This document shows, in pieces, positions 22,166-55,834 of a stretch of 64,000 nucleotides of DNA (positions within the stretch are counted from its first letter, which is position 1; every line of letters starts with the position of its first letter). This DNA comes from Dryococelus australis. Its lineage: Eukaryota; Arthropoda; Insecta; Phasmatodea; Phasmatidae. The position numbers and the translations under genes were made by a program. The notes beneath the pieces are model-generated. The model saw only the letters and a program-made list of their open reading frames with translations, was not told the origin of the DNA and did no database searches. Location: positions 129,369,338 to 129,433,337 of the forward strand of contig CM057000.1 in NCBI GenBank assembly GCA_029891345.1. Direction: 5' to 3'.

Positions 22166-22184
22166 GGAGAAAGAAGCAGCTCAC

Positions 22185-26710: not shown

Positions 26711-27132
26711 GGCTGTTCACGATAAAGTGAGCACTTTATAAACGAACCTTAGAAAAAAGTCACTCCCACTGCATACATATATTTTAACGGGCGCACTGAG
26801 TAACATTCACCCAGTAAAGTTGGTAACGATGGAAGGAAAGTAGTTCCATATCTTAACGTCGAATAAAAAGTGTTAGTTAAACATTTATGATAACTTAAAA
26901 TTATTTCTTTCGCTTTCTGTTTTTTTTTTTATGCAACGAAGTGTAAAAAATGAGCAGATTTGTAAAGTATTTACTTTCTTAATAATTTCACAGTTTCACT
27001 TGACCGACGCACGAATAAAGTGATGAGGCCCATGACGATGTTAATTTTACATAAGATGGAAGAATACACAACGTGTATACAAGTAGATCTTAAGGAGGGT
27101 TTTCAAAAGTGCTCATTTCAACGTGAAGAACC
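26711..27132 (+). mobile_element. MITE family A, copy 4
   Basis: Begins GGCTGTTCACGATAAAGTGA and ends TCATTTCAACGTGAAGAACC. Full length at about 422 bp and the least disrupted copy, so a useful reference for the family. Confidence 0.82.
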
Positions 27133-29137: not shown

Positions 29138-29373
29138 GGCTGTTCACGGTAAAGTGAGCACTTTTGAAGTTCTAGTTACTTTTTCCTTTCAGCCATTTTT
29201 TTAAATTATTTAACCACCTTTTTAAAATGAATATTCCTATATAAGTAATACACGCAGTATGTATACTTCTCCGCACACGGAAGTTAAAATCTAAGGCTAA
29301 AATAAAATCTATTTACTGATTATTATTCCCAACGAGAAGGCTTTCAAAAGTGCTCACTTTACCTTGAATAGCC
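29138..29373 (+). mobile_element. MITE family B, intact copy
   Basis: Starts GGCTGTTCACGGTAAAGTGA and ends TCACTTTACCTTGAATAGCC; 236 bp. It shares the ends of family A but has a different, shorter interior (GTTCTAGTTACTTTTTCCTT). It is the intact reference for the copy split by the Polinton. Confidence 0.85.
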
Positions 29374-36560: not shown

Positions 36561-37674
36561 TAGCTGACTGGTGCGACTTCGTTCGCATGATTTTTTTGAA
36601 AGTTATTAAAGTAAAGCCCACCAAAGTTTCATTAAGGTTTTATGTTTAAAATACTAATATTTCTTCTTTCAGGTTTAATGGAGTTATTAAATTACACCCT
36701 GCCATCGCTTCGCACATGTTTATGTTAGCATGATATTTAGGACTTTGAATTGATCTACCCACTTTTTTTTATTGGGTTCTCTAGCCACTGAGCTACTGCG
36801 GCCCCCTTTGTGGGTGCTCTAGCCACTGAGTTACTGCGGCCCCAATTTTGGGTGCTCTAGCCCCTGACCAGCTGCGGCCCCATTATTGGGTGCTCTAGCC
36901 ACTGAGTTTCTGCGGCCCCACTATTGGGTTCTCTATCCAATGAGCTAATGCGGCCCTACTATTGTATGCTCTAGCCCCTGACCAGCTGTGGCTCCACTAT
37001 TAGGTTCTCTAGCCACTGAGCTACTGCGGCTCCTTTATTGGGTGCTCTAGCCACTGAGCTACTGCGGCCCCACTATTGTATGCTCTAGCCCCTGACCAGC
37101 TGCGGCTCCACTATTAGGTTCTCTAGCCCCCGAGCTTCTGCGCCACCCTTATTGGGTTCTCTAACCACTGAGCTTCTGCGGCCACCTTATTGGGTGCTCT
37201 ATCCACTGAGCTACTGCGGTCCTACTGGATATACATCTATCCACTGAGTCACTGCGGCCCCACTTGGAATAACTGTAGCCACTGGGCCACTACGGCTTTT
37301 TGGAAGGAAAGGTTTACAGCCCATAAGCCCATAGACAAAAAAGAAAGGAGAAATTACGAAACAATTTTTAACAATACTTTTTTTTCATGCAGTAATCCTA
37401 AGAATAGCTTAATCTAGTACCTATTTACACCCCTGGTCATTTTTTCCGGAACCGTTTGAAATATCTCGATGAAACAAAGACTATGTTGGTCCTGGAGTTA
37501 TTATCTATATGCTGTGTAAATTTGATATCCATATGTTGAGTGGTTTTTGAGTTAAATTCGTTCGGACAGACAGACACGAAAAAAATTAACATTAGATATG
37601 GCTTAGTTATCAATTATACTACATACAAAAACTAATTAAAAGTGAAAAATTCAAAAATCACAGACATACACTTC
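36561..37674 (-). mobile_element. Non-autonomous Helitron-like element, sister of 25926-26619
   Basis: Reverse complement starts TCTGTGATTTTTGAATTTTT and ends GCGAACGAAGTCGCACCAGT then CAGCTAAT. It is about 420 bp longer than its sister, mainly because of the 38-bp array at 36771-37296. No Rep/helicase frame. It sits in a family A MITE. Confidence 0.65.
36771..37296 (-). repeat. Tandem array of about 14 tRNA-like 38-bp heads
   Basis: On the minus strand each unit reads GGGGCCGCAGTAGCTCAGTG then GCTAGAGCACCCAATAGT, which resembles the first part of a tRNA including a near-consensus pol III A box (TAGCTCAGTGG). No B box is present. Units differ by 2-8 bases, so the array is not very young; variants with GGTCAGGGGCTAGAGC alternate with the main type. 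Confidence 0.85.
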
Positions 37675-37835
37675 TATTTTATTTAATTGCATAGATAAGT
37701 ATATAGAATAGCAAAATTGTATTTTTTTTTTTAATTTCACATTTTACTTGACCGACGAATGATTAATGTGACCAGACCAACGGCAATGTTAATTTTTCAT
37801 ATGACGTAAGTATATAGAATGTACATACAACTATA

Positions 37836-37927
37836 GGCTGTTCACGATAAAGTGAGCACTTTTGAGCCCCTAGTTACATTGTCCTTTTAGACATTTTTTA
37901 AAACCACCTTATAAAATAATTATTACC
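37836..37927 (+). mobile_element. MITE family B, left half (split by the Polinton)
   Basis: GGCTGTTCACGATAAAGTGA to AAATAATTATTACC, collinear with the first 90 bp of the intact copy at 29138. Its last six bases ATTACC are the left target duplication of the Polinton; the right half resumes at 54575. Confidence 0.9.
37922..37927. repeat. Target-site duplication ATTACC, left
   Basis: Exact 6-bp direct repeat with 54575-54580, at the position expected from the intact family B MITE. Confidence 0.88.
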
Positions 37928-39179
37928 AGTAGAGCAAAAAAATATGTCGGGGCCTCCGGCATCTGGCGTCGGAACCGACCACCGCCACCTTGAGTTTCGC
38001 TTTTTTCTTTTTTCCCCTTCAAAATTTCCCTTTTTTCTCTTTTTCCCCTATAAATTTCCCTTTTCCTTCAAATTGTCACATTTCCCCCCACAAAATTTCC
38101 CGTTTCTCCTTCAAAAAAAGCATCGATACCCCCAGTTACAAAAAAGATCCCCCGAAAGTCACTTTTCGATCAATCGGAAGGAATTGGGGTATCGTTTTCG
38201 AGGGTAGAGCAGTGGCAACCGTATTGGTTTTATAGGCATAGGATATGCCAAATCGATACACAGGGTCCAGGGTCTGGAGTCAGATCTGACAATCAGATAT
38301 CTTGGTTCTGTCGGCCATCTTGTCCGCCATATTGGAACCAGGTGACCTTGGTCCCTTGACCTTGAATAGGCCCGTGAGCTTGATTGACCTTGAAACAGTA
38401 ACATTCTGAAAAATTCCAAAAGATCCCCAAATATTAATTATAAAAAGTTATTTTAAAAGTTATTTAAAATCACTATAAATTCAAGATTTTAAATGTCTGG
38501 GCTTAGAGATGACGAATAAATGGAACAAACTAGATACCATATTATGATGTCACCCAACCATCATGTTAGACCAAGGTTACCTTGACCTTGAACCTATAAC
38601 CGTGGCCTTAGATGACCTTAAAAACAAACACACGAGAAAAAATTTTAAAAATCGAATAAATTCATAAGTCAGCGAGCATTTTACATTACTGATTACTACC
38701 GCTATATTGGATCTAGGTAACCTTGAGCATTGACCACGAACCAGTGGCTTTTGAACTTTAACCCAAAAATCGTCAAAAATCCCAAAAAACTTCCTAAGAA
38801 TTTACAAAAAAATCACATTATATTAACATTCACCTCCCCTTTCCAATGTTTCTCCTTGGTTAATTAGTCGGCAGACCTCCACCCCCATCACTTTTGCATT
38901 CTCTCGAATACGCTCCACCCACCATATTGGTTTTATGGTTTGTCATTTATTTACATTTTCAACACCTAGGTGGCACTGATAACTCCGACCAAAATGTTAA
39001 ATCTGGGTGACCTTGACCTCACATCTAGGACCTTGACCTCATGTCCATAGCCTTGGATAATCTTGAACCCAAAAATAAAACTATTTTTTTTTTATAAAAT
39101 TCCAAAAAAAAAATAAAAAAATAAACTAAAAAATTGTTATTTTAAATCTTTTTTTTAAATCTCGCAATTTTTCCATCAA

Positions 39180-39660
39180 TCAGCACTGCAATCAGCACCA
39201 CACTTAGCACCACATGCACCACAATCAGTATGACACTGCAATCCACACAGCATTCCACAGAGCAATCCACACACCAATCCTCCTCCTCAGAAATCCTCAC
39301 CAATCATCCTATTCAGCAATCCTCATAAATCCTCCTATGCAATCCTCCTCACCAATCCTTCTATGCAATCCTCCTCACCAATCCTCCTATGCAATCCTCA
39401 GCTATCCTTCTTACCAGTACTCAGCAAACCTGCTTACCAAACCTCAGCAATCCTCATCAATCCTCAGCAATCCTCTCCAAACCTCAGCAATCCTCCTCCA
39501 CAACCTACACCAATCCACACGCCAATCCACACATATATCCACACCAATCTGCACCAATCCACACACAAATCCACGCCAATCATTAGCAATCCTCCTCCTC
39601 AATCCACAGCAATCCACCACAATCTTTCGCGATTCTCCTCCATAATTCACAGCAATCTAT
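39180..39660. repeat. CAATCCTC/CAATCCAC-rich low-complexity tract in the TIR
   Basis: Dozens of variants of an 8-15 bp motif. Overlapping frames of 143 and 177 codons (Asn/Gln/Ser/Pro-rich) arise from it and lack any domain. The counterpart in the right TIR is 53560-53850. Confidence 0.85.
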
Positions 39661-40044
39661 GCCAATCTTTAGATCATTCCCAACCCTTCGATCAATCACA
39701 ATATTTCGATCTATTTCAATTCTTCGACCAATCCTTCAGTTTGTCCATCACCCATATGTATAGAAATTACATTCATTCCCCAAATATCTCCAAACTTGTA
39801 GATGTCGACAGAATTAATGTTTTGTCTGCAGTCAACTATCCATACATTTTTATACTAAGTATTTATTATCATTCTATATGCAGATATTTCTGTTAATAGT
39901 TGAGTGCTCATAGCACCATTTTAAAGTTGTAAGGGAAAAAAGGATACTACACACAAAAATAAAGAAAACCAATTATTTATAATAATAATTTATTATTATT
40001 TTGTTATTAGAATTTCAGAATAAAACAGTCCGTGTTTTTGAAAG

Positions 40045-40265
40045 TCAATCAAATATCTGAATCTTATCAACAAGTTCATTTGGGTCTTCGGGAAATAGGT
40101 AGCTAGTATTCTCGGCGTCTTCTGCCTTCTTCATGTCGCTTGTTGCAGCAAAGGTGTTGGAGAGGTGTGTCAGTGCATCGAGAAAATCGCCATCATCGTC
40201 TTCAGCACTAACATTGTCTTCATGTTCATTTTCATTAATACCCTCTTCATGGTCATCTTCAACTC
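40045..40265 (-). CDS. Acidic terminal exon inside the left TIR
   Basis: The minus strand after CTAAACAG encodes VEDDHEEGINENEHEDN, then EDDDGDFLDALTHLSNTFA, then AENTSYLFPEDPNELVDK and a stop at 40045-40047. No domain is recognised; it is strongly acidic with a possible amphipathic LDALTHLSNTFA helix. The same exon, about 80 percent identical and in the mirror position, lies at 52965-53179. The 3' splice site is inferred from conserved CAG|GAGTTGAAG with an upstream CTAAT/ACTAA in both copies. The upstream zinc-finger frame (40281-40736) is in a different phase and lacks an obvious donor, so the connection is unproven. Confidence 0.55.
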
Positions 40266-40280
40266 CTGTTTAGTATTCTA

Positions 40281-40736
40281 TATTAAATTTGTATTCTTTG
40301 TAGCAGTTGTTGTATGCTCATCAGTATTTAGAGCCGACGACCGTTTATTTTGAAGTTCGTCGACTTCATGCGAAAGTCTTGCAAGTGTAGGCCTACATTC
40401 CACACAAACCGACTCTACTGCACTCATTCCATCTTTAGAATTAATTGTCTCATCATAATCATCTGTCGAATCGGTACCCATCGACGCAGCAAGAAGTACT
40501 GCTGGCAACACTTTCTGTATCCCAGTAGACGAATCCTTGCAGATCTCGGTATGTTCTTTCAATGTATCGCCTTGCATAAACTGCATGGGACTAATGTCAT
40601 AATGCTTTGCCACGTGAAATGGACTCTTTGTACAGGCTGCTCTCTCATGCCGAGCATTTCGACCATAGGTGAAAACTCGATCGCAGGAGCAGCATTGGCG
40701 ACAACCAGATAGCGATGATGCAGGTCGCAGCTCCAT
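40281..40736 (-). CDS. C2HC zinc-finger protein gene of the Polinton
   Basis: The open frame from ATG at 40736 (MELRPASSLSGCRQ) gives 152 residues. Near the N-terminus it has CCSCDRVFTYGRNARHERAA followed by Cys, a C-x2-C-x11-H-x4-C finger of C2H2/C2HC type likely to bind nucleic acid or protein. Three further Cys pairs and a Ser/Thr/Asp-rich C-terminal half follow, with no other domain recognised. It is transcribed away from the capsid module, facing the left TIR, so a shared upstream region (40737-41098) may serve both. It is one of the few long intact frames in the element. Function unknown; an early regulatory protein is a guess from position only. Confidence 0.6.
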
Positions 40737-41068
40737 GTTCGTTGAAGTTAAAGACAATTAACAACAAAATTGTCGCTAATCGTTGATATTTCTCTTGTTG
40801 TATTGTTTCAGAAAACACATACATTTTCAAATTTAAGACCATTTGGATGTTCCAACATCGACATAATAACACAAGTTTTACCTCATGAAGAATGACCGCT
40901 TATTATACATAGTATATTTTATGGTAAAAGAATACTATGTTTCTCTTCAATTGTGTTTTCTTTCGTTTTACAATTATCGGCAGTTGTACATTTTGTTTTA
41001 TAACCTTTATTTCTGCACAATTATACAGTATTAAATAATTTACTAACATAAAACTATAAATGTGGGTC
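40737..41068. other. Divergent upstream region between zinc-finger and capsid genes
   Basis: AT-rich, 330 bp, no coding frame. It should hold control elements for both directions; only the plus-strand TATA module at 41069 is recognisable. Confidence 0.45.
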
Positions 41069-41092
41069 TATATATAGTTTCGCATTCAGTTG
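41069..41092 (+). promoter_or_regulatory. Late-type promoter module, copy 1
   Basis: TATATATAG at 41069 and GCATTCAGTTG at 41082, the latter starting 13 bases after the TATA start. The ATG of the PLA2 reading frame follows at 41099. The same two blocks with the same 13-base offset occur at 42749. Recurrence ahead of two genes suggests a shared promoter or initiator signal. Confidence 0.6.
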
Positions 41093-41098
41093 AAAACA

Positions 41099-41467
41099 AT
41101 GGTTCGTACTAAACATATCAAAAAATGACGTGGTGTATTGAATACACTGATTAATAAATTACAATTTGAATTGAATTTACCGAAGTACAATTATTTCGGA
41201 CCAGGTACTAAAATTGCCAAACATTTAGTACGGAACGGTCAAGGAATAAACTCTTTGGATAACGCTTGTAAAGAATACTATATCGTTTATGATCGAACAA
41301 ACTATTTGAAAGAAAGATATATACCAGTTACAATTCTAGCCAATAAAGCTGCAAATATAAGGAAGAACCCATCTGCATCTACAAGTGAAAAGCTTGGAGC
41401 TGGGGTTGTTGTTAAAGTTATGCACACAAAGGTGAAGAGAGAGATGAGTGTAAAACGTAAAACTTAA
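41099..41467 (+). pseudogene. Phospholipase A2 domain protein of the virion module
   Basis: The frame begins at ATG 41099, is stopped at 41126-41128 (TGA), and continues to TAA at 41465-41467. It encodes LPKYNYFGPGTK, the calcium-binding-loop Y-x-GPG of parvovirus/adintovirus PLA2, then NSLDNACKEYYIVYD where active enzymes have H-D before the x-x-Y-D. Here both catalytic positions are Tyr, so lipase activity would be lost. In related viruses this domain helps the incoming particle breach the endosomal membrane. The reading frame continues in the same phase into the pX-like and protease segments, interrupted only by stops. Confidence 0.8.
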
Positions 41468-41746
41468 AGAAGAACAAAGAAAGGAGGAATCATTCAGTTC
41501 CTATTCCCAGCATTAACAGCTCTTGTATCAATCCTCGAAGGGGTTTCGGCAATTAGTAGAGCAGTTAAATCAAAAGGTAAAGGAATGTATCTGAAACCTT
41601 ATAAAGTTGGACAAGGAGGAAAGGGCAAAAAACTTCCAAACATGAAAAAAAAAAAAATGCAGAAAGTCCTAAATAGTCTTCCAAAATGTGCATTTACAAA
41701 CAAAGATATTAATGTATTTGTAAAGAAACTAGATATTCCTTATTTC
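41468..41746 (+). pseudogene. pX-like hydrophobic and basic segment ahead of the protease
   Basis: Same phase as the PLA2 frame. A hydrophobic run (FLFPALTALVSILEGVSAIS) is followed by a Gly/Lys-rich stretch with GMYLKPYKVGQGGKGKKLP and a Lys-rich patch. This matches the hydrophobic-then-GlyLys layout of the adenovirus pX-like proteins of adintoviruses, thought to act on membranes or package DNA. It ends IPYF at the TGA at 41747-41749, directly before the protease. An A run (41645-41657) inside it could also have changed length. Confidence 0.65.
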
Positions 41747-41749
41747 TGA

Positions 41750-42005
41750 GGTGTGTATATGAGAGACAATTTACCAAAGAAACCAAATCTTCGTGAATGT
41801 ATGACAGTTAATTTAGATTCGATAAAAAACGAAGTAACACACTGGGTTGCATTAATTAAGAACATAACTCATGCATTTTATTATGACAATTTCGGCGATT
41901 TACGCCCTCCAATTAAAATACATAATTATTTAAAAACACACAATTAAGGCACAATTACAAAACGGAACAATTACAAAATACAATCAATTGTGGAAATTTT
42001 GTTTA
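41750..42005 (+). pseudogene. Adenain-like cysteine protease (virion maturation), broken
   Basis: After the TGA at 41747-41749 the frame encodes MRDNLPKK, then VTHWVALIKN with the catalytic His and FYYDNFGDLRPP with the Asp-containing Y-Y-D-S/N-F-G motif, the signature of the adenain/ULP1-type proteases of Polintons and adintoviruses that cut capsid precursors. A stop at 41944-41946 truncates it. The expected C-terminal Cys motif is visible as INCGNF around 41986-42003 but in another frame, so a frameshift separates the catalytic Cys from His and Asp. At least two lesions make it inactive. Confidence 0.85.
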
Positions 42006-42072
42006 CGTTTTTTGACTATAAATAGGATATATAAGTAAGTGTAATATTAAGCATATTAGTAATATGTGAATT

Positions 42073-42739
42073 ATGTTGATATTAAGTGCAAATTCATCGC
42101 AATTGCGTGCGGTATATTTCCTTGTGTTGGAGTTAGTTGGAGAATGGCAAATAAGTCTAATCGAATTCGGTACTTACAACATCATACCAAACATTGATAT
42201 GCATAACCAATCATTTATGGCTAATATTGGTGAAAAAAACCTACATGATTATGATACTGGTAGGATCTTATGAGTTGGATGACTTAGTAACATTCATTAA
42301 AGTGGCATTACCTGAAAATGTACATTTCTGATTACGTGGAAATTCAAATATGTTAACTAGTGCGATGTATAGTAATGTCGATATCGATTTCTCGGAAGAC
42401 AATTCAATTGCAAATATGTTAGGTTACGAACGGAGAGTGTATTCCCCTTATCACTTACACGAATCATCAAAACAGGTGAATATATTATCTGTAAATGTAT
42501 GCCATATAAATGTTAATATTATACGCAGTTCATATTTTAATGGAAAACTGACAAATACAATACATGTATTCATGTGTACTGTGGCTCCAGGATATAAAAT
42601 AATTTAAAAACCTAATATATTGACATATCTTCCAGCAATAGTGAATTCTGTTGATGTAATAGTTGTTACAATCGTCGATCAAGATTGTAAACTTATTAAT
42701 TTTAGAAATGAAGAAATTACCATCCGCTTACATTTTTAA
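42073..42739 (+). pseudogene. Penton-like minor capsid protein, broken
   Basis: The frame from ATG 42073 gives GEWQISLIEFGTYNIIPNID, then a frameshift near 42262 leads to SYELDDLVTFIKVALP, a TGA at 42329-42331, YSNVDIDFSEDNSIANMLGY, VNILSVNVCHINVNI, APGYKII, a TAA at 42605-42607 and a tail ending NEEITIRLHF. The order TYN-IPN, SYE-I/LDDL, D-F---NS-A--LGF, a V-C-I-CNI strand, PPGY-I and EEITIRLHL recurs in the second capsid gene of arthropod Polintons, taken as the penton-type single jelly-roll. Assignment to penton is from gene order and memory of the family. One frameshift and two stops. Confidence 0.72.
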
Positions 42740-42748
42740 AAAAAAGGC

Positions 42749-42772
42749 TATATAAACAGTTGCATTCTGTTG
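42749..42772 (+). promoter_or_regulatory. Late-type promoter module, copy 2
   Basis: TATATAAA at 42749 and GCATTCTGTTG at 42762, offset 13 as in copy 1. The ATG of the small basic protein is at 42788. Sixteen of 24 positions match copy 1. Confidence 0.6.
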
Positions 42773-42787
42773 TACATTACAATCATA

Positions 42788-43009
42788 ATGGGTGTTGTGT
42801 ATAATAGTAAATTTGGACGCAAAGTAGGTAGTTGTTTTAATAAGAGGTTCTCTAAGGAACATATTTCGAAGAAAGGAAGTATAAAGAAACGTAAATGCAA
42901 GTATAAGATGCTCACTTCAAATAACTTACCCATGAAGTTAACACAAGGCAATGAATTGTATTTAAAAGAATTAGGATATATGGTTAATAGAAATGGAAGA
43001 CATACTTAA
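42788..43009 (+). CDS. Small basic protein ahead of the major capsid gene
   Basis: Intact 73-codon frame from ATG 42788 (MGVVYNSKFGRK); an in-frame ATG at 42770 lies inside the promoter module and is less likely. It is rich in Lys/Arg (KKGSIKKRKCKYKM) and ends ELYLKELGYMVNRNGRHT. Similar short frames sit just upstream of the major capsid gene in arthropod Polintons; no function is known to me. Its end overlaps the start of the capsid frame by 17 bases, as in compact viral gene blocks. It is one of the few unbroken genes. Confidence 0.6.
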   Translation: MGVVYNSKFGRKVGSCFNKRFSKEHISKKGSIKKRKCKYKMLTSNNLPMKLTQGNELYLKELGYMVNRNGRHT

Positions 43010-44151
43010 TGTTGAGGAACCAATCAGTTATGAAAAGGCAATCACCAATACGGAAATACATGTGTATGAACTATTCAGAGCAGGTCTGTATGTATATATT
43101 TTTCCTTTGGAACAATTAAAAAGACAGCCAATGCATGTAATCCAGTAACTACAAAAATAGTAAGAAATGGAATACTTAATTTAATCGACAGAATTGCATA
43201 TCTGCTCAATGGTGTGGAAATTGATAAAAAATGAGATGTTGGAATTACTTCCACGATAAAGAACTATCTCTCTGGAACTGTAAACGATCTTATACAGGAA
43301 TTATGGCTGAGTGGAGCAAAGCTAATGATTACTCACTACAAATAAACCCAGGTGGAAAATACGAAGTTGTTATACTGTTAAGTATGGTTTTGAGCTTTGC
43401 TGAAGACTGCAAATGCGTTATATTAAATGCTAAACACGAATTACTTACTCTATTTGGCAAAATGCATTTGAATGCCATATATTATACAGCTAATAACGAG
43501 GAAGGTGTAACATTTGAATTAAGCAGTGTGGAATGGTTGATGCTGCATATTGAAATTAAAACTTGTGAACGTGTGAAGTTTTTAAAATTTATCAAAAAAG
43601 GGAAGAATTTAGACACTGCATTGAAGTTGTGGGGTTTAGAGGTTTTTCCAACTCTACCAATAGCTCAAAAAATAGTGTGGAGTGTGAAATCAAGTTTTTC
43701 GTCGGAAAAACCAAGATATGTTGTAATTTGTTTTCAAACAAATCTACAAAACAATTTAAAAGCTGATAGATCAGTATTCATTAATTGTGATATGAAAAAT
43801 ATTAAACTGTATCTAAACAGTCAAGCTTACCCCTATGTGGATTTAAATATGAACTTTGGTAATGGGGAATTCCTTATTACCTACAATATGTATACAAAGT
43901 TTCAGGAAACATATTATAACAAAAACAGTTCACCAATCCTAGAACCCAAAACATTTAAGAGTAGAGGAGCGTTATTTGTGTTTGGTGTAAGCAAACAAGA
44001 CAACACGAATACAAATAGCATGATTGATTCATGAATTGAAATTATCGCAAATACACAAATTCTGGCAAATAACCAAGGTTACACTCAGATAATTCACGAT
44101 AGATTAGTGAGTTACAATGTAAGAGATAAGCTGGTGAAGATAATAAGTTGA
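42993..44151 (+). pseudogene. Major capsid protein (double jelly-roll, hexon-like), broken
   Basis: N-terminus MEDILNVEEPISYEKAITNT from 42993 matches the usual start of arthropod Polinton capsid proteins. The frame is soon lost: an internal deletion plus shift at about 43060-43140, then LLNGVEIDKK and a stop, then the long frame to 44034 with LSFAEDCKCVILNAKHELL, WLMLHIEI, VWSVKSSF---KPRYVVICF, LYLNSQAYPYVDLNMNFGNG and FQETYYNKNSSPILEPKTF. After TGA 44032-44034 the same frame goes on with IIHDRLVSYN to the end at 44151. These strands are the hallmark of the Polinton/adintovirus hexon, which forms the icosahedral shell as trimers. The homologous protein is usually about 500 residues; roughly 100 near the N-terminus are missing. 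Confidence 0.87.
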
Positions 44152-44183
44152 GTCAGTAGGCAAAAAACCACGGCTACAATGAG

Positions 44184-44594
44184 ATGTTTTGCAATGTGCA
44201 AGGATTTCAATCTGCAGAAAAATGTATCATTATAGAATTAGCTACTACTGATATATAAGAACATACAACTGTATTCAGCTTCAAATCACCATTTGTCTGG
44301 AAATATCTAACTCCCAAATACAAGAAAACTAATAGATGGGTTATCAATCATCATCACTGCGGTTTAAAATGGGAGAGTGGGTGTATAGAGTATGAGAATA
44401 TTAAAGATATTTGCAAACATTACCTAAATAATTGTGAAATATGTGTAGGTGGAGTCGAGCAAAAACACATTTCAGAAAGTGTGTATAACAGGACAGTAAT
44501 ATATATTCAAAATGAATACAAGTGCCCATCGTTCAAACAATTACTTAAGACATATGGATCTAATTCAATGTTTTTCTCTGCAGAGGAAAACTAA
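44184..44594 (+). pseudogene. Conserved Polinton-linked protein of unknown function
   Basis: From ATG 44184 the frame reads MFCNVQGFQSAEKCIIIELA, a TAA at 44256-44258, then FSFKSPFVWKYLTPKYKKTN, RWVINHHHCGLKW, GCIEYENI and KCPSFKQLLKTYG to TAA at 44594. The pattern QGF, ELA, F-PPF-W--L-PKYK--NRW, H-G--W--G-I-Y, V-G-EK and CPSL recurs in arthropod Polinton-associated hypothetical proteins. I do not know its function; an RNase H-like or host-interaction role is possible but not shown. One internal stop only. Confidence 0.6.
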
Positions 44595-47002
44595 AAATTA
44601 ATACTAACTTGGGCAATTATGTCTGACTGGGGTGAAACAGACTATGATAATTTTCCTCCTGAATCACCTGTGGATATTATTCGAGTGATATGGCATTAAT
44701 TGGAATGAGAGAACTAATGAGTGAAATTTAGTATGAAAAGTATTTGGTTTTATGTAATCCACTAATTCGTAAAGATGGATCAACAAGACAATGAAATCAC
44801 CTCTTCTTGCATACAGAAATCAAAGTGTAAATTGAATATTTGCATGTTATTAGCACAATTGAGTCAACAATTTAGAGTTTGTCTCAGAAGGAAATAGTTT
44901 TAACAATTTTGAGACATCCTGTAGTTACATGTGTATGTTTTAGAGTAATGTGTACTAACTTGTGTGTGTTTTGGAACACAGTAGTTTAACAGAAAGATTT
45001 GCTAATTTTTGAAGCAGTTTGTGTTTGTATATATTTTGTCAATAAATTGATCTTGTAAAATCAATTTTTACTTTTATTTAATCTATCCTTATTAAAAGTG
45101 AACTGGTTTTCTTAAGAATAATATATTCATAAATAAATGTCTTAAGAGAGGGAAAATTAATTTAAATGTCATAACAGGAAGAGATTATAAATTTTTTAAA
45201 TAAAGTATGTTGCATTATTATGTACATGTGCTGTAATGAAAAAGCCAGAGGAAAAGTTCTGGAGGCAAGCACTCTAACCATTTTTCCATAACTAAGTAAA
45301 TAATATACAATATCAGGTAAAACATGGTTAACATGAGTTATTTTCTGGGTTTGAGTCCAGGGCGAGGTATATTTGATAATACTAAGTTTCCAGATTCAAG
45401 TCCCTGATAGGTCATGTATGATAATAGTTGGTTTATAAACATAAAAGGAATAACAAACGAATCATTGTTAATTAATCAAATATAAATTTGTTCCTGCACA
45501 TAGAAAAGGTAAATATGCTCAATTTTATAGATGTTTAAACTTAAATGAATAGTGTGGAAAATTTCAAATTAAATGTTATTAGCTAATAAATTTATACTCG
45601 CTTCGAAATCTTAGACTTATAGTGTTTGCCAATATCTCCAGATGTGGAAAAACTATTATGTTTAGAGATCTACAACCTTAGCAGTGTGACCGCTCCTTCT
45701 CCAGATTCATAAATCTTCAAGGTTAAATTTCAACCTTTTTTCCAATAGGACCAACTACAAAGACCAAGATCTCAGAGGGTGCCAGTCTGACTCCAACAAA
45801 CCCCTGCAGAATGCATTTTGGTTTTATTATACCCTGGGGAAAGTATCTCTTTTCACAAAGCAAACTGCCATGGTCCTTTGTCCGTCCTGGTGGGGAGAGC
45901 AGTTCAGGTCAACGATTTCACCATCAAGGGTACTAAGGGAAAAATGTTTTCCTAGCAAAATATTGTGTTTTCTACTTGATAAAATTAATATTCACTTTGC
46001 AAGCTCCATTACACATAGAAATATACATCAATTAAAAAAATACACAAGACATATATAAAAAAAATGAACAAATATTTACGAAACAAGTTTTACTTCCCTG
46101 TACACACTAACATTTACCAAAAAATTTTAAAAATATCTTATAAAATAGAATTTTAACCATATTGAAAACATGTTCGGGAACATTAATGGAAAAAAATTTC
46201 CATAAGTGGTTAGCATAAATATGATTAATAATATACAGATTAAGAAAACTGGAACATATTTACTAAAATTAGGTTGTGGAGCATAACATGTTTCTTAACT
46301 AAGATAAGATATATAGTGGAAAAAATTATTTTATGATAATTTAAATTTTGCAGAAATATTAGCTGATGTCATAATATTACAAAATGTAATACATTCTATT
46401 AAACAGTAATTACATTTATGTTTCGAAAAAAAAATTTCCTAGAGAAGTTTAAAGAGGGATAATAGCAAGCGTGAATGGTTTTTATGGATTATAATACTTT
46501 TTTTTCTCTATACATTATATATCGCTTTATTGACTATGTTTATCTCTAGTACGTTGCTAATCCTTTTGATTAATTATTAATTAAACAGATTTAATTTGTT
46601 AAGAAGAAGTTATTCTAGTGATAAATTAAATGTTATTCATTTCTTCAAGGACGAACCTTAGCAGAGAGGTTTGTCTTGCAGGTTTGGGGCGAGGGTTTGA
46701 AGATATTTGAATGTCGGGGGTGAGGGAAGGGAGGGGCCTGGGTGTTTGGACTTCTGACTTCTGGTTGGAGGGGCGAAATCAGCCTTTTCGAATATTTACC
46801 TGGGAATTTGAAAATTTTATACACAGGACTTTAGCCTCTACACCCCCTTTCACTGTTTCCAGTTGTTTGCCAGTTCGGTTTGCTTTAGCATGTAGTGCTC
46901 CTATGAAGATTATTTTCTTGGCTTATCTACCCAAGACTTTAACAGAGAACTTACAGATTTAAACTGGGATAATTTTAATGCTTTACTGATGGACCAGATG
47001 CT
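44595..47002. other. AT-rich Polinton interior, no gene recognised
   Basis: A 27-codon frame at about 44620-44699 starts MSDWGETDYDNFPPESPVDI and may be the start of a decayed gene. No polymerase B, integrase or ATPase motif was found in any frame. Short segments such as GGTTTGAGTCCAGGG (45350) and GATTCAAGTCCCTG (45394) resemble B boxes but lack an A box. Confidence 0.45.
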
Positions 47003-47950
47003 TTGGCAAAAAATTTATTCGATTTTTTGGATGACGACGAAGAAAGTGGATCTACTCTACAGCCGTTGCTCTTGTCAATGCCTTCAACGATAAGAGCAGT
47101 TAAAATAACATCTACGCTGGCGAATTCTACAGTAACACCTTCAACATCGAGAGCAGTTGCAGTAACATCTACGCTGACGAATTCTATAGTAACACCTTCA
47201 ACATCGAGAGCAGTTGCAGTAACATCTACACTGACGAATTCTACAGTAACACCTTCAACATCGAGAGCAGTTGCAGTAACATCTATGCTGACGAATTCTA
47301 CAGTAACACCTTCAACATCGAGAGCAGTTGCAGTAACATCTATGCTGACGAATTCTACAGTAACACCTTCAACATCGAGAGCAGTTGCAGTAACATCTAC
47401 GCTGACGAATTCTACAGTAACACCTTCAACATCGAGAGCAGTTGCAGTAACATCTATGCTGATGTATTCTACAGTAACACCTCCAGTGTTGAGAGCAAGT
47501 ATATTGATGGCTGCACTAATGACACCAACAGCGTTGCCTTCAATGTCGAGGGTGGAATCTCTAGATTTAACATCAGTTATCAAATCAGGTGAGGCATGTA
47601 AACAAAAACCAGCAATGTGTTTGTGTTACACTCCACTAGATTTAACCTGAAATAATGTGCAGGAAGATACGTCAAAAAACTATTTATATCAAAAGGTGGA
47701 CGAGTTTTTAGAGTTAAACTTTGTGTTTTCACCTGAGTCACATCTACCATCTCCTGAATTATTATTATTATTATCACCTCAATCGCCACAGTGTAAATTA
47801 ATTTCACCACCTCCTCCTCCATTCATACCTTCACCACAGGAAATTATTTATACTCCTATAACATTACCAATATCACCACCATCACCTGTTGTCCCTGTAA
47901 AGGAATGCAAATTCAGCTTATCTCTTAACTGTAAATGGAAATTTCAATGA
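47003..47950 (+). pseudogene. Thr/Ser-rich repeat protein of the Polinton, one internal stop
   Basis: The frame encodes an acidic start (AKNLFDFLDDDEESG), six exact 19-residue repeats of VTSTLTNSTVTPSTSRAVA type, a diverged seventh, then TGA at 47648-47650 and in the same phase a Pro/Ser-rich tail (ISPPPPPFIPSPQE) ending at 47950. Translation start is uncertain: no ATG opens the frame near 47003. Thr/Ser repeats followed by a proline-rich stalk recall surface or fibre-like proteins, but this is only a resemblance. The reverse strand is also open across the repeats (202 codons) and is treated as the shadow. Confidence 0.45.
47108..47506. repeat. Tandem 57-bp repeat, 6 copies plus a diverged seventh
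   Basis: Units begin ACATCTACGCTGACGAATTC every 57 bp from 47108 to 47449. A length divisible by three keeps both strands open. The near-identity of units in an otherwise decayed element points to recent expansion or constraint. Confidence 0.95.
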
Positions 47951-50900
47951 AAATTTAAACTTACAGTGATGAATGATTTAAAAACATAATATGAAGTGAT
48001 GCTTTCTGATGCAACATAATTTAATAATTTTTTAAATTTTACAATTGTAAGGATCTTCAGATGTCATATGGTGACAAGATTTTCAGTGTTAATATGATGT
48101 GAAGTTTTATAAATATAACGATTTTCACTTGTAATAGGCTGAGACGTTTTTACAGTTTTAATGATTGAAGGTATAAATTTGGAACAATTTGTAAACAAAG
48201 TTAAATGATTTACTAAAAGGTTTACGAAATATCATTCAAGTTTTAACTATTGATTAAAAAGTTTAATAATTTGTTAAAAATCTTATAAACTTTCATTCAA
48301 ATTCTAAAGACTTGTTTGAAAAGTTCAACGATTTATTTAATAAGTTGACAAAATTTCATTCGAATTCTAAAGACCTGTTTAAAAAGTTTACAAAATTTTA
48401 TTCACGTTGTAACGATTGATTAAAAAGTTTAATGTTTTGTTAAAAAGTTTATAAAATTTCATTCAAATTCTAAAGACTTGTTTAAAAAGTTTTGACAATT
48501 TATTAAGAAAGATAATGATTTCTGACATAAAATGTTGTAAAGTTTAATAAACTTTATGATTTCAATCATAAAAAGTTGGAAAGGTTTTTAGTCGTGACAT
48601 GATTTGTTGTGATTATTTTTTTCAGTTTTATGATGTAAGAATGGAGTTTTTGGTTAAACAGCTTGTATGGCTTTCAAGCTTAAATGGTAAAAATGTTTAA
48701 TTGTTTTCAGTCGTGACATGATTTGTTGTGATTATTTTTGCAGATTTCTGATGTAAGAAGGAGTTTCTAGTTAAAAAGCTTGTATGGCTTACAGTGGTAA
48801 CATGTTGATAAACATTTGTAGTTAATTGTATTATTTGTGATGTATCATGAGGCACAGATTTTTTTTTTAAGCTTGTAAGCTTTTCAGTAGTAACATATTT
48901 AAAGTTTTGTGATACTAACATGTTTGATGTGAATATGTAGAGAATTTGTTATACGAATGTTAACTAAGGTATGTTTTATGAATAAAAATAATAATTTTGA
49001 ATAAAATTTTTATATGTTAAAATTGAATGCTGTGGCTTGTTACTTACTAGTTAGAAGATTCATGTCATTATATCTCTTGTGAATGATTGGAGATGGGTGT
49101 GTTTGAAGACGAAGTACTTGTATATGTCTGGATATTTAATGGAAAAATATATTCTTGAGACGAGTGGGTGTTCATAAGTTGTTTGCTTAATTTTTAAAGC
49201 CAGGTAGGAGGATAGCTGCTTGCTCACTATCAAGGAAAAAATATACGAGTTGTTTACTTTTTTCTTGATGAGGGAGAAAAAATATTACACATTAAAAAAT
49301 ATCATTTACAATTTCTATTAACGAAATGTAATAAAAAACACACTTTGAAGGGGGAATTATAAAAAAAAATGTTGGAGAAAATCGAACACGTCTGAATTAA
49401 TCAATTTAAAAGGAGAGGGAATAGACTAGTATCTCGAGAAAACTTTGCCGGGCAGCTGGTCAACTTGAAGAACCCTGGGGAATTTAATGAAACCGAGCAC
49501 CAAGTCACACAAATACCTTTTCAGGGGAAAGGTAGAAAGACCTCTTGGTGACACACCACCATTTTTCCCGCTGTCTTACAACTCTGCAGCTTGGAGAAGC
49601 CAGCCAACTTTTAAAATTAAGAAAAAAAATTTCTCACAGCAACAAGTTTAATACTACTACTACTGCAGCTGAAGATTCAACACGAAAATGCTTGCTGATA
49701 AAACACAAAGTCAAAAAACATAATTGAAGGGTTTTTAAAAATAAAATTCAACTTATGTAAAAAAAATGACTGCCAATTGTCCTTTAAATTTGCTTAAATT
49801 TGACCTTTTATGAAAGTTAGTTGAAATATCATGAAATTTAACAGATTTCAGCTTCGATAGCAGTCATTTTAAAATGGATACATGCTATTTCAGTAATATC
49901 ACGTCGAAATTTATTTTATAGGGAAAACAATTTCTAAACAAGTTCAAATATATACACATTTTTTATGGCAAATAGTAGACTCGAAATTCTAGGTTAGGAA
50001 AAAACTATACGTAAAATATGCATAAATATATATATAAAAAAAAAAAAACAGATTGAAAGTAAAAAAATTTGGTTTTAACATGAGTTTGTTTCACATAAGA
50101 TTTCAATGTTTGAAAAAAGTTTAACTTCAGTATTGCTTAAATCGAATGAGGTGTGAATGGTGTTCTAAGTTTAACTTGTGCAAGTGGAAAGATGTGTGAT
50201 TTTATTACTTAAAATAAATTAACGAGTCAAAATATGTCTTATAGTTGATCATAGTTTCGTGGAAATATTTTAATAAGTTTGCTGGAAAACATTATAAAGT
50301 TTGCTGGAAAACGGAAATAAACATTTACAGAATTAAAATATAAAGTGTTTTGGTTAGAATGTTAAATCTTTAGGATTATCTTGTGGGGATTGCAATTTGG
50401 GTAACTTTTAACATCTGGGTTATACATTTCATCAGCGGCATTTGTAAAATTTTATTTCAGTGGGAATACACCAGGCCCTTGTGTCTCGAAAAATAGTAGC
50501 AAACTTCAGTGTTCAAGCGAAAGTAGCAGTTTGTAAGGAAGTGGGGAGCTAGCCCAGGTCAGTTCAAAATCCGATGCCCGAGGGATGGATGCTTCACATT
50601 TCGCACAAAAGAAGTGTTTTGGCCTTGAGGCAAGCCTCTGTTCCTGGCCGAGGCAGCTCTCATGTCGGAAAACATGCATTCTGGGGTGTTGAGGCTGCAT
50701 GGGCAGGTTTTCCGAAGTGCAGCGTTGGAAGGGGCGAAGGGGGTGTTTGGCACTAAACAGGTTTCTGCAGTGTTGGATCGATAGCAGGGTGCATTACCTT
50801 GGACAGAGCAGCCCTCCGAAAACGAACTCTGTGGTGGAAGGGGAGGTGGCTGGGTGGCCTTGGATAGAAACTGTCTTTTCTCACAAATTCATCTTCTGGA

Positions 50901-51425
50901 GAAGGGGTGGGGGTGGGCAGCATCGATGTGAACAGCTCTCGCAGGTTGGCGCCATCTTAGTTCATCGCAAACACTTGTCCAGGATACATGTATACACCAG
51001 CTCTCTCGACTTCACCGGGCACAGTGGGTAGCGGGCTTCGTGATGCGACCAAGAGATAGTGAGGTCCCTGATTTGTGGTGTCGGCCAGCAGGCTTCAGAG
51101 AGTGCTAGCCGCGATTCTTGTTAAGCGATTCTCATTTTAATATAAAAAAAATTGTTCTAGTTTTTTTAATTTATCGAGGAACTTAACAATTTATCGGAAA
51201 TAAAATAATTTTCGTGTAAACCCTGCTTCTGAGAGTTCGGTATGATTTTCAACTATCGTTTCGGTAACTAGTATCGTGAATTTCACAGATTTAACAGATG
51301 AAAATTTTGTAGTAGGTCCGTTATTTTAAATAATTTAAGATAAAATATAGTACGTTTCTATAAAGTGTTACGGGATTAAGTCATCCGACTCTCATTACAC
51401 TTCGACGGAAAAAAATTGTGTTAAA
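47951..51425. other. AT-rich Polinton interior with imperfect repeats, no gene recognised
   Basis: At 48200-48520 about five imperfect units of roughly 60 bp contain TAAAAAGTTTA and TTCATTCAAATTCTAAAGAC. At 48585-48670 and 48705-48795 a segment is duplicated (GTCGTGACATGATTTGTTGT in both). A GC-richer island at 50505-51110 has no recognisable protein and could be a nested insertion. Confidence 0.45.
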
Positions 51426-51470
51426 ATGAATGATTCTAACAATAGTGAAACTCGCATTAAAAATATAGGT
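51426..51470 (+). CDS. Candidate first coding exon with strong splice donor (right side of Polinton)
   Basis: ATG at 51426 opens MNDSNNSETRIKNI and the exon ends in G before GTAAGTG at 51471. The one-base phase fits exactly the GA start of the acidic exon at 52965, giving a plausible two-exon gene. This is inference from splice signals; no transcript evidence is available. Confidence 0.4.
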
Positions 51471-51591
51471 AAGTGTTTAAAAAAAAATTATTATTATTTC
51501 GTTGTCTGTTGTAGGACGAATAGTGTAATCAAATCGTTAATAGTAGCTTTGTAGGGAAATAGGTTCTGTCAGTCGTAAATTTCAACTCAGC

Positions 51592-52182
51592 TACGCTCCA
51601 CGTATATAACAGCTTATAAGCCGGCACACATCATACCCTCGACTCATTCATTTACCAGCCTCCAAGGCGGACAGATGTATTTTGGGGGAGTTCCTTGTGC
51701 GATTTCAGTACATTTTTAGTCATTTTCATGAACTTGTGTCCATTAGCTGTTTGATTTATTAGGAGACATTCATTTTGTATTTTCATTAAAATTTTCGAAT
51801 TTTTGACCTCGGTCTATAATTAAACACAGGTTATGATTTTCTCAACACAGCTTATAAATTTACGTAAGTGCTATAGCCAAGTCAGTGCTGCAGCGACCTC
51901 TTGATCGAATGGACACATATTTTAATCACTGACTGTTAACCACAATTCTCAATACGTGTTTTTTTTATTCTACTAGTGTAATTTATATATTAGTATGTAC
52001 GCCGTAAACATAATTTTTATCCATTTGCCACGTAAATCATATTCACATTTATTTCCAAGTAACTATATCCTTAGTCGCATGTCAGACGCACTCCACATAT
52101 CTAACAGCTTATAAGTTGGCGCACATCATACACTGCAGTCATTGCTTCAGCTATCTCTCGACCAAACGGATGTGTTTTGAAA
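51592..52182. repeat. Direct duplication of a promoter-like segment
   Basis: 51592-51690 and 52084-52182 share CTCCACGTATATAACAGCTT (CTCCACATATCTAACAGCTT in copy 2), ATAAG and GCACACATCATAC. The TATATAAC in copy 1 resembles a TATA box. Both copies lie inside the proposed intron 51471-52964. Confidence 0.55.
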
Positions 52183-52949
52183 TCATGTAAGCTGTGTGCG
52201 GGAGGCATCAAGTAGTGTATATTTTTCTTCAAAATACCTTGTTATTGTGATTAGGACGACTGCTGTTTAATTTACAGCGACATTTTTATTCGTTAATTAA
52301 TTTCATACTGGAGACTCATGCAATTGTGATCGTTTAGCACTTGTCGACACCAGGTTATTCATACATAGAAGTCGTTTGAAATATATTTCGTTTAAAGACT
52401 CAGAAATTTTTCTCTTGTGTGTTAACTATATGTAACATTTTCTCTTTCTGTTTAATTGCTATTACCAAAAGTCGCCTATCTCCCACCACTGTCTACAAGC
52501 ATCATCACTATCAACCCGAAAAACTAACACTTAGGCCACTCTTGCACAAAACTCAACAAATATGTATACTGGGTCTGCAACACACCACACCTCATCGAGT
52601 GCCAGAGCTCCAAGAGTGAGGACGTACCACAGTTGCTCCCCAACCCACAAAACGAAAGATAGAAAATAATACATTTGTCAATTAGTACACTCTTGCACCA
52701 AACTCACAAAACATTTGATCAGATAAAATACATTTTAATCGAATTAAAATGGGATTAAAAGTTGTTTGATCGGATTTAATCGGATTAAAAATTAACCATT
52801 TCAATAATTTAAACATTGCAGTACATTGAACCCTTTCAATCAATTTTATTAACCCTTTCGGTAAATTTAATTAACCCTTTCAATTAATGTAACCCTTTGA
52901 TATCAATAAAGGCGTCATCCCTTCGTTTCAGAACCGGCCCGACCCTACT

Positions 52950-54574
52950 ACTAATACAAAACAGGAGTTGAAGATGACCATGAAGAGGGTATTGATTAAA
53001 ATCAACACGAAGGCAGTAATATTGTCGAAGACGATGATGGCGATTTTCTCGATGCACTGACATACCACTCCAACACCTTTGCTGAAACAAGCTTCATGAA
53101 GGCAGAAGATGCCGAGAACACAGGCTACCTATTTCCCGAAGACCGGAATGAATTTGTTGATAAGACTAAGATAGTTTGATTGACCTTCAAAAACGCGGGG
53201 ATCTCTTGCACATTAAAGATATATCTTTACTCGTTTTTAAACTGAATAATCGGGGATATACAGTATGATACTATGAACTGCTTTCGTCTGAAATTTTAAT
53301 TACAAAATAAAAATGTATTATTATAAGATCATTGGTTTTTCTTTATGTTGTGTGTCGTATCATTTTTTCCCTTAAAACTTTAAAATGGTGCTATGAGTAC
53401 TCAACTATTAACATAAATATCTGCATATTGAATAAAATTAAAGACTTTAGTATGAAAATGCATGGATGGTTGAAAGAATACAATACATTAACTCTGTCGA
53501 CATCTACAAATTTGGAGATAGTTGGTGAACGAATGTAATTTCTATACATATGGATTGATTGAAAGATTGGAATTGATCGAAGGATTGGGATTGATCGAAG
53601 AATTTGCATGGGTTGCTGTGGATTATGAAGGAGAATTACGAAGGATTATGGTGGATTACTGTGGATTTCGGAGAAGTATTGGGTAGGATTGGTGTGAAAT
53701 GGTGTATGGATTGGTATGGAATGGTGTCGGGATTGGTGTGTCGATTGGTGTGGATTGCAGAGAAGGATTGGTGAGATATGTTGTCTTTGGTGGGGAGGAC
53801 TGGCGAGGATTTTTGGGGATTGGTGAGGAAGATTGCCGAGGATTGCATAGGATAATATGCTCGATTACTTAACTGAATTTATTAACTTTTTACAATTCTT
53901 TTGTCGAGTTTTTGTTTTCAAGGTCGTCTAAGGTTACGGTTGTAGGGTCAAGGTAATCTGGGCACAACATGATGGTTGGGTGACGTCATAACATGGTGGC
54001 TGGTCGGTTCCTGTTCTTCGTTCCCTCTAAATGCAAACATTTTTAAAATTTTAATTTTATAATTTTTTAAAATACATTTTTAAACAATTTTTTATGAATA
54101 TTTGGGGATTTTTTGGATTTTTTTTTCTTCGAATTTTTGGTATTTTTTCGGAAATTTTTGGTTAAAAGTCACTAAGGTCATGGGGTAAAGATCTCTTAGA
54201 CCTAATATGGCGGACAAGATGGCTGACAGAACAAAGATAGCTGATGTTCAGGTCTGAATCCGGACCCTGGTCCCTGTGTATCGATTTGGCATACCATATG
54301 CCTATAAAACCAACCGCTACTGTTCTACCTTCGAAAACGATTCCCCTAAATCCTTCCGATGCTTCGAAAAGTGCCTTTTGGGGGATCGTTTTTGCAACTG
54401 GGGGTATAGGTTGTTTTTTGAGGGAAAAAAGGGAAATTTAGAGAGAAATTTAATCGATTTTGAAGGGTAAAGGGCAATTTTATGGGGAAAAGGGAAATAA
54501 GGGAAATTCAATATAGCGGCGGTCGGCTCTGACGCCAGACGCCGATGGCCCCGACTCATATTTTCTTTTATACT
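52950..54574 (-). repeat. Polinton right terminal inverted repeat
   Basis: Inverted partner of 37928-40275, shorter through several deletions. Ends GGCCCCGACTCATATTTTC and TTTTATACT. Confidence 0.88.
52965..53179 (+). pseudogene. Acidic terminal exon, right TIR copy
   Basis: After CAAAACAG the plus strand encodes VEDDHEEGID, a TAA, then EDDDGDFLDALTYHSNTFAE, AENTGYLFPEDRNEFVDKTK and a stop at 53177-53179. It mirrors 40045-40265. The in-frame stop (GATTAA where the left has AATGAA) breaks it here, while the left copy is open. Confidence 0.6.
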
Positions 54575-54580
54575 ATTACC
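54575..54580. repeat. Target-site duplication ATTACC, right
   Basis: Exact copy of 37922-37927 immediately after the CT end of the Polinton. Confidence 0.88.
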
Positions 54581-54688
54581 ATGCAATTAATAAATGCAGT
54601 GTGTACATTCCACCGCACAAAATATATTTATTTACTATAATTCCAAATGAGATGGCTTTTAAAAGTGCTCACTTCAACGTGAACAGCC
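54575..54688 (+). mobile_element. MITE family B, right half (split by the Polinton)
   Basis: Continues the family B interior (ATGCAATTAATAAATGCAGT, ACATTCCACCGCACAAA) and ends AAGTGCTCACTTCAACGTGA then ACAGCC, the inverse of the left end at 37836. It ends 53 bp from the LamG exon. Confidence 0.88.
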
Positions 54689-54740
54689 CTTCAGGCGACG
54701 GTAGGAGAGACGAGGAAGGCTGGAATACCTAGTGTGTTAC

Positions 54741-54986
54741 CTGATCCGAGGTTCCAGGTGAGCACGACGTAACCCTTGATGAAGCTGACTGCGAGATGGT
54801 CAGAGCGCGAGTCGTGCGCGCCCTCCTGACCCACGAACACCATGAGCGCGATCTGCTCCATCGTCGTCGGCGTGAAGTGGAAGCGCAGCTCGAGGCTCCT
54901 GTGGATCGCCGCCGGCAGCGGGTACGCCACGTACGACGCCAGCCCGCCCACCGTCGGGAAGAAGGACGGCTGCCCGATCTCCAGGT
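54741..54986 (-). CDS. eys: Exon encoding LamG N-terminal strands of an eyes shut-like protein
   Basis: The minus-strand exon starts after GGCTGTTGACAG and ends CTCGGATCAG before GTAACAC; 246 nt equals 2 + 243 + 1. It encodes LEIGQPSFFPTVGGLASYVA, then LELRFHFTP, LMVFVGQEG, DHLAVSFIKGYVVLTWNLGS. This is the first half of a laminin G domain: the SYVAYP strand, the R-LELRF-F-P strand and the DHLAVS-I-GYVVL-WNLGSG hairpin. It joins exon 25443-25622 at LGSG|PRR. The next exon is 29 kb away, across the Polinton. The upstream exon was not found in this window. The frame is intact and GC-rich compared with the surroundings. Confidence 0.85.
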
Positions 54987-55834
54987 CTGTCAACAGCCAC
55001 TCCACTCTCTCTCATATAATGCGGCGCGAAATGCGCCTGGCCTTCGGGACTATGCCTGCACAGCCAGTGGTACGATGAATCTCCAGAAATAACGAGTCCG
55101 CCGTGAGCCAACTCGCCGGCGAAAACATCAAAACTCGAAAGTCCAGAAAATTCGTCAAACTTGCAAACGGCACACACACACATAATGACGTTGCACCCCC
55201 GAGGCCGAGGCCCAAAAATCCGAACCGTCACCGACGACGGCTACAGAAGAACTTCTCATGAGAGTCATTTGGCCTCCGTGCGCTCCGGGCTCCCTCCTAT
55301 GTAACTCTTTGGGCTGTTAACATTTTCAGTCAAGTAGAGAATTCAAATTTTTGGATAGTTTTCGCAGTATGTTGCTGTCAAATTGGAAAGTAATTTCCGT
55401 GCCTCACTGGCCTTGTACGAGGAAAAGCTTTTAGAATGTGATTTTAATTCTGATAATGTTACGTTTGCAGGAAGTACGTTTAGACCAATTGACACATTTT
55501 GGCTTAAAAAATTACTGTCAGAGGAACATGAATGATTCCGTCGTGAAAGAAGCTCAGTTACTCCAACATTTTTACACTGCAGTTCAAGACTATCCCCCGG
55601 TCTTGGGTTGAGAAATTTTATATGTATAGTGGGCTGCACCCATTATTGTGGTTCCGCGGGCCGCAAACGTAAAACTCACAATAACCTATCATACATAGAT
55701 TTTTAAAAATAATACTTATGATACTGTTTTTATTAATACAACGCAATATTTAATCACATTAACTATATTAATTAAGAAAATGCCATACATATCGAAAGCA
55801 GTTAATCTCTACTTCGATACCTGGGGTGGTATTT
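54987..55834. other. Intronic DNA, no gene recognised
   Basis: 54987-55260 is GC-rich but its overlapping frames have no domain. Near 55640-55670, TGGTTCCGCGGGCCGCAAACG resembles a hAT/Charlie-type terminus and may pair with 59128-59155. Confidence 0.35.

Follow-up and report, generated by a model that had tools for sequence, protein, structure and literature searches.

A Polinton with exact ends in the stick insect Dryococelus australis: probable nested remains of two decayed elements

Introduction

When a transposon shows exact ends, long inverted arms and a target-site duplication, is it necessarily one complete element? The question is raised by an insertion of 16,647 bp in a 64,000-bp stretch of the Dryococelus australis genome (contig CM057000.1, positions 129,369,338 to 129,433,337; hereafter the window, with coordinates counted from its first base). 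A sequence-only reading had taken this insertion for a complete-length Polinton/adintovirus-like element. We find that its outer ends are real, and that it is probably a composite: two Polintons, the second nested in the first, both decayed.

Mavericks, as Polintons are also called, are abundant in the stick insects Timema cristinae and Clitarchus hookeri according to published repeat-masking counts (PMC5691397), and the presence of Maverick-type repeats in a stick-insect genome is a likeness to the window at the level of those counts, not of sequences. In the D. australis genome paper 1.56 Gb of repeats have no classification, and neither "Maverick" nor "Polinton" occurs in its main text (PMC10268593). 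A literature search under the name Polinton gave no paper on these elements in stick insects, as judged by titles and the beginnings of abstracts.

Results

The outer element was inserted into a MITE

The outer boundaries comprise the following features, the halves of the target being those of a miniature inverted-repeat transposable element (MITE).

37836..37921, unstranded: left half of the target MITE (its arm is 37836-37863), from the arm motif and joined-flank alignment
37922..37927, unstranded: target-site duplication ATTACC, left copy, read directly
37928..40277, plus strand: left inverted arm of the outer Polinton (AGTAGAGC...), 84.7% identical to the right arm
52953..54574, minus strand: right inverted arm of the outer Polinton (...TATACT), from alignment to the left arm
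54575..54580, unstranded: target-site duplication ATTACC, right copy, read directly
54581..54688, unstranded: right half of the target MITE (its arm is 54661-54688), from the arm motif and joined-flank alignment

The two ATTACC copies enclose the 16,647 bp, which start with AGTAGAGC, finish with TATACT and thus have AGTA and TACT as termini. The arms, of 2350 bp at left and 1622 bp at right, pair over 1503 bases at 84.7% identity (37928-40277 against 52953-54574); they score 1026, whereas 50 shuffles of 2-mers reach no more than 36, the direct orientation 35.8 and two control flanks 34.4. Divergence between them is 0.172 by the Kimura two-parameter measure (K2P; 116 transitions, 114 transversions), the largest differences being a 194-bp gap at 38665 and a 378-bp gap at 38871. 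Among the 19 inverted pairs listed in 37500-55000, 16 run from arm to arm, one comes from the flanking MITE (I14) and two are stray (I16, I17).

A 28-base MITE arm motif brackets the element in inverted orientation (37836-37863, 54661-54688) and occurs 12 times in the window at up to three mismatches, against none in 100 shuffles. When the flanks are joined through a single ATTACC they match an uninterrupted copy of this MITE, 29124-29373, over positions 1-215 of 230 (69%, 37 gap positions, E 2.4e-30). The outer element was therefore inserted into a MITE, and both its ends are therefore fixed independently of the arms: ends and 6-bp duplication are real, and the uninterrupted copy is the empty site. 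The termini, inverted repeats and flanking ATTACC of the sequence-only reading, and with them its identification of a Polinton, are thus confirmed. Copies of the MITE family, with its 28-base arms, lie at 5195-5609, 26711-27132 and 29138-29373, and one lies within a Polinton relative elsewhere in the genome (locus L039, about 3370-3603).

A second terminus coincides with the inner boundary of the right arm

Three further features lie between the arms.

40278..40754, unstranded: unassigned stretch holding an open frame (40281-40757, minus) of 159 aa, rich in cysteine
40755..52952, plus strand: putative inner Polinton remains, with left end and left gene block missing, from homology to L039, L037, L025 and L021
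52938..52952, minus strand: proposed terminus of the inner Polinton at its right, which reads AGTAGTAGGGTCGGG inward from the end and matches the terminus pattern exactly

The sequence ACCCTACTACT finishes at 52952, and the right end of the presumed inner Polinton (..CCCTACTACT) falls on this base. Mavericks with the end motif (AGT)2//(ACT)2 have been reported (PMC8097293). We compared ten 10-kb stretches downstream of capsid relatives (L021-L030) with the window. In four of them (L025, L026, L027, L030) homology stops at the end motif, the homologous right end being C(C/T)CCTACTACT, followed by unrelated sequence. Global scores for the 120 bp inside the terminus are 51, 47.5, 29.5 and 45.5 respectively, and 48.5 against the left arm of the copy that includes L025, while shuffles reach maxima of 18-22; the 120 bp beyond the terminus score 5-9.5, which is shuffle level. 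The outer repeat of the window behaves as the mirror image: it is 88% identical over 120 bp on the outward side of 52953 and at shuffle level on the inward side. The end of the relatives' homology and the break in the outer repeat therefore place two independent boundaries on one base, as would be expected had the outer right arm received an insertion. Since the loose terminus pattern turns up 34 times across the 18 loci scanned, the case is built on position and alignment and does not depend on the motif by itself.

Relatives carry arms of their own, and one carries a left gene block that the window lacks

Two relatives bear on what lies between the arms: the C12 copy, represented by L025 with L037 as its other end, and the C11 copy, represented by L039. 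Homology to the window starts at 40755 in L039 and at 40894 in L037; it reaches 52103, in pieces, in L021 and 52954 in L025. Both copies have inverted arms of their own, with 868 aligned bp at 82.5% in C12 and at least 836 bp at 84.9% in C11, whose piece starts within its arm. Among the fetched pieces only L036 on C15 matches the outer arms of the window by blastn, and weakly (68-75% over 99-277 bp); its terminus resembles the outer terminus by eye.

To the left of its capsid block L039 carries, on the minus strand, an integrase core (rve, E 5.1e-12) and, in the same block, a further integrase-like piece, a PX-like piece and a coiled piece; we assume the PX and C-terminal integrase labels. L039 also has a piece with A32-like ATPase similarity, below the Pfam cut-off at E 0.0015, and the homology between L039 and the window sets in at 40755, some 40 bp in from the 5' end of this open reading frame (ORF). 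Five L039 pieces find homologues by tblastn in L032 and L033 (E 1.5e-4 to 3.9e-32), which carry an A32-like ATPase homologue like that of L039. Against the window the same five pieces detect no homologue of the integrase-to-ATPase block, only a chance-level match at 6575-6637 outside the element (E 0.068); they do match 50741-50898 (E 1.8e-10), where the L039 frame crosses its own arm.

Other relatives are modular. L023, L026, L027 and L030 have the capsid block in common with the window to about 44.9 kb, then diverge from it over some 5 kb or longer and regain similarity only in parts of 51.2-52.9 kb; the stretch differing from window 44.9-51.2 kb may reflect modular exchange between copies. 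L022, L024, L028 and L029 match the window over less. Zinc-finger-like open frames with proline- or glutamine-rich tails occur at L032:2786-3175 (+), with a zf-C2H2 match at E 0.027, L036:5121-5609 (+) and L023:7474-8067 (-).

The genes that remain are those of a broken capsid block

Gene outlines were obtained by tblastn with 477 ORF pieces of at least 60 aa from L001-L008 and L031-L036. They show four plus-strand genes, the last two of which spread over more than one frame.

41078..41446, plus strand: phospholipase A2 (PLA2)-like capsid-block gene, degenerate (PF08398; tblastn with ORFs of other copies)
41660..42012, plus strand: conserved small capsid-block gene (tblastn with ORFs of other copies, best E 6.6e-29), which we take by its position to encode a minor virion protein
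42040..42736, plus strand: conserved gene preceding the capsid gene, with frame changes (tblastn with ORFs of other copies, best E 1.2e-42); presumably penton-like, by position
42890..44148, plus strand: major capsid protein gene, double jelly roll, broken (PF21738; tblastn pieces in more than one frame)
44259..44591, plus strand: open frame, function not assigned, also in relative L025
47081..47532, unstranded: 57-bp tandem repeat within the putative inner element

The double-jelly-roll (DJR) major capsid protein is identified by Pfam family PF21738 (E 3.6e-55 at 43228-44031, profile positions 65-289 of 316) and the PLA2-like gene by PF08398 (E 4.5e-8 at 41129-41464), and the capsid-type genes predicted within the 16,647 bp are thereby substantiated. 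The eleven closest capsid relatives (L010-L020) align with the window at 78.5-86.5% in blocks of more than 1 kb within 41.7-45.4 kb. Ten of these alignments are interrupted near 43091/43109, where some 60-90 bases in the relative face about 25 or fewer in the window; L012 aligns across this place uninterrupted. Pfam finds nothing in 42332-42604, within the third gene, and the frame 44259-44591 has neither a Pfam match nor a homologue in a large protein set. PHROGs gave one weak match, at 41468-41746 (E 0.008, function not assigned), and Rfam and tRNA searches gave none.

To look beyond the capsid block we divided 40100-53000 into 170 stop-to-stop pieces of at least 33 aa and scanned 160 with Pfam, the other ten lying in the arm, in the tandem repeat or in short overlapping frames. 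The 160 pieces hold no polymerase (PolB included), integrase, ATPase or protease family: neither an RVE-type integrase nor the packaging ATPase and cysteine protease expected of a Polinton was found. As no integrase was detected, we class the element as Polinton-derived remains and not as an intact member. A cysteine protease was likewise not found in any of the relatives scanned. Weak Pfam matches in the window pieces (five families, best E 0.0076) and in the right halves of relatives (eight families, best E 0.0016) were taken as chance.

Outside the genome only two capsid relatives were found, at 35% and 34% identity; among viral contigs 6 and 53 pattern matches yielded none that was confirmed, and the three PDB rows for the capsid piece are at chance level (best E 0.31).

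No PolB was found in the window or beside its relatives

The scans for PolB were run without a true PolB positive control. Besides the window pieces, Pfam scans covered 150 of the 243 pieces obtained from seven right-half stretches of relatives and, of the 284 pieces that some 20 kb around three other capsid copies (C7, C14, C15) yielded, the 150 longest; neither set showed a PolB family. The latter scan found DJR in four members, PLA2 in two and rve in one but not the ATPase at E 0.01, which shows that weak genes go unnoticed in such a scan. A search for PolB motifs at up to one substitution, over 40 stretches (38 loci, window 44.2-52.9 kb and host flanks), gave no exact motif and no motif pair. 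A protein-primed PolB is thus undetected in the window pieces and the scanned relatives. No PolB was found beside any capsid copy scanned (L021-L036, window 44.2-52.9 kb), though rve, DJR and PLA2 were found there.

Loss, distance and decay of PolB are all possible explanations of these negatives. We consider it unlikely, though worth stating, that the sampled Polintons, which represent two capsid subfamilies, multiplied with integrase, ATPase and capsid genes while lacking PolB and relying on a polymerase taken from other elements or the host.

What defines adintoviruses is the joint presence of PolB and a retrovirus-like integrase. The element has capsid and PLA2-like genes broadly similar in kind and to that extent is adintovirus-like as originally proposed; unlike adintoviruses, it yielded neither PolB nor integrase, and we do not make the assignment.

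Capsid copies are numerous and similarly diverged

The genome searched amounts to 3,415,067,245 bases in 646 contigs (published assembly: 3,421,391,311 bp in 1,879 scaffolds; PMC10268593). It contains at least 126 matches to PF21738, all above the cut-off (126 of 18,148 first-look candidates were scored), and at least 143 to the window capsid piece (143 of 15,443 scored). The best other copy among the matches listed is 76% identical, and eight of these 143, the window's own included, are free of stop codons.

In the capsid segment of 12 copies (the window and L010-L020) K2P over the 66 pairs is 0.131-0.257, with a mean of 0.179; the tree is star-like, with terminal branches of 0.080-0.207 and internal ones no longer than 0.020. 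At the three codon positions the pairwise differences are 0.149, 0.146 and 0.178, a pattern that appears close to neutral decay, and the divergence is close to that of the outer arms. Arm divergence and star-like copy divergence together suggest one old burst. At an insect rate of about 3e-9 per site per generation the arms would be some 30 million generations old, to an order of magnitude only.

Flanks of the insertion

The sequence-only reading placed the insertion in what may be an intron of a host gene; the target seen directly is the MITE, and the nearest exon-like ORF is the following.

54694-55011, minus strand: exon-like open frame with weak Laminin-G likeness, candidate host exon

Its matches to PF02210 (E 0.017, below that family's cut-off) and to laminin alpha-1 in the PDB (E 0.017) make it possibly a host exon; a separate profile scan gave nothing at E 0.01. 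The interior of the element has no blastn match to the window flanks at 1e-3. A 38-bp tandem repeat (GCTCTAGCCACTGAGCTACTGCGGCCCC-like) at 36770-37296 adjoins the element, and a longer array of the same kind adjoins the C11 relative (L021:7534-9009). Elsewhere the flanks hold a DDE transposase fragment at 63152-63448 (+; PF13358, E 0.008, below its cut-off) and tandem arrays at 8247-9062 (115-bp unit, 7.1 copies, 98% matches) and 21686-22170 (32-bp unit, 15.2 copies, 97% matches).

Discussion

The insertion resembles Polinton/Maverick elements as described (PMC4028283, PMC8097293) in its long inverted arms, its 6-bp target-site duplication, its AGT../..ACT ends (AGTA/TACT outside, (ACT)2 at the presumed inner right end, 52952), its double-jelly-roll capsid and PLA2-like genes and its length within 15-20 kb. 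It differs in that two elements are apparently nested, that genes are broken and that integrase, ATPase, protease and PolB were not detected.

We propose that a Polinton integrated into a D. australis MITE and duplicated ATTACC, a step for which the ends, the duplication and the uninterrupted MITE copy can be seen directly. A second Polinton, of the (AGT)2..(ACT)2 end type, would later have inserted into the outer right arm; one or more deletions would then have taken the remaining outer interior, the inner left end and the integrase-to-ATPase block, and the remains would have decayed under little or no constraint. We favour this nested arrangement because the inner right end and the outer-repeat break share base 52952, because the C11 and C12 relatives carry inverted arms of their own in fetched pieces without the window's outer arms, and because L039 carries an rve integrase and an A32-like ATPase piece to the left of where window homology starts. 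Several observations weigh against it. The end motif stands at the homologous place in only four of the ten downstream stretches, homology ending earlier or the place being unclear in the other six. The six bases beyond the two ends of the C12 copy, the sole relative with both ends read, agree at only four positions. C12 also lacks the left gene block, its left arm abutting window 40894, so the block is present in one of the two relatives read on that side. The inner left end is absent, so that a target-site duplication is seen for the outer element alone. Among the loci compared there was no undisturbed copy of the outer element. The stretch 40278-40754, which has no Pfam match (E up to 1) and only short chance-level matches to the fetched loci, could belong to the outer element, continuing it inward, or be other DNA.

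The reading of the insertion as a single ordinary Polinton, the long arms its own and the motif at 52942-52952 due to chance or internal likeness, draws on the exact outer ends, the 6-bp duplication and a length within the usual 15-20 kb (PMC4028283), and the abundance of the loose terminus pattern makes the motif by itself weak evidence. Four relatives nevertheless end their homology at that very base, with unrelated flanks beyond, the outer repeat ends there too, and the left block known from L039 is missing; we think the single-element reading improbable. The buried terminus and missing left block, together with the broken capsid gene and the undetected integrase and PolB, leave the claim of a complete-length element poorly supported. 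Less improbable, though still doubtful, is a chimera formed by recombination of two elements before integration, which entered the MITE once, flanked by the outer arms and with a relic terminus in its interior. The modularity of relatives such as L023, L026, L027 and L030 beyond about 44.9 kb is in its favour, as is the near equality of outer-arm divergence (0.172) and mean copy divergence (0.179), from which therefore no age order of outer and inner parts can be read. It requires, however, that the inner terminus abut the outer-arm boundary exactly without any insertion, and no second copy of such a chimera is known among the loci compared here. That the assembly itself united two Polinton pieces is very unlikely: the genome paper does speak of reads prone to error and of repeats that were probably collapsed, but its filtered read N50 of 35,056 exceeds the element's length (PMC10268593), and the element is framed by both halves of one MITE and both copies of ATTACC.

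The insertion is thus a further example of a kind of element already known from stick insects; what is corrected is its structure, which is probably composite. A single complete element does not follow from exact ends, a 6-bp duplication and the expected length, since nested Polintons can mimic one. For D. australis the copies describe what would be an old, datable Polinton burst; if the PolB-free reading were true, the window would hold a relic of a capsid-bearing, polymerase-free Polinton lineage.

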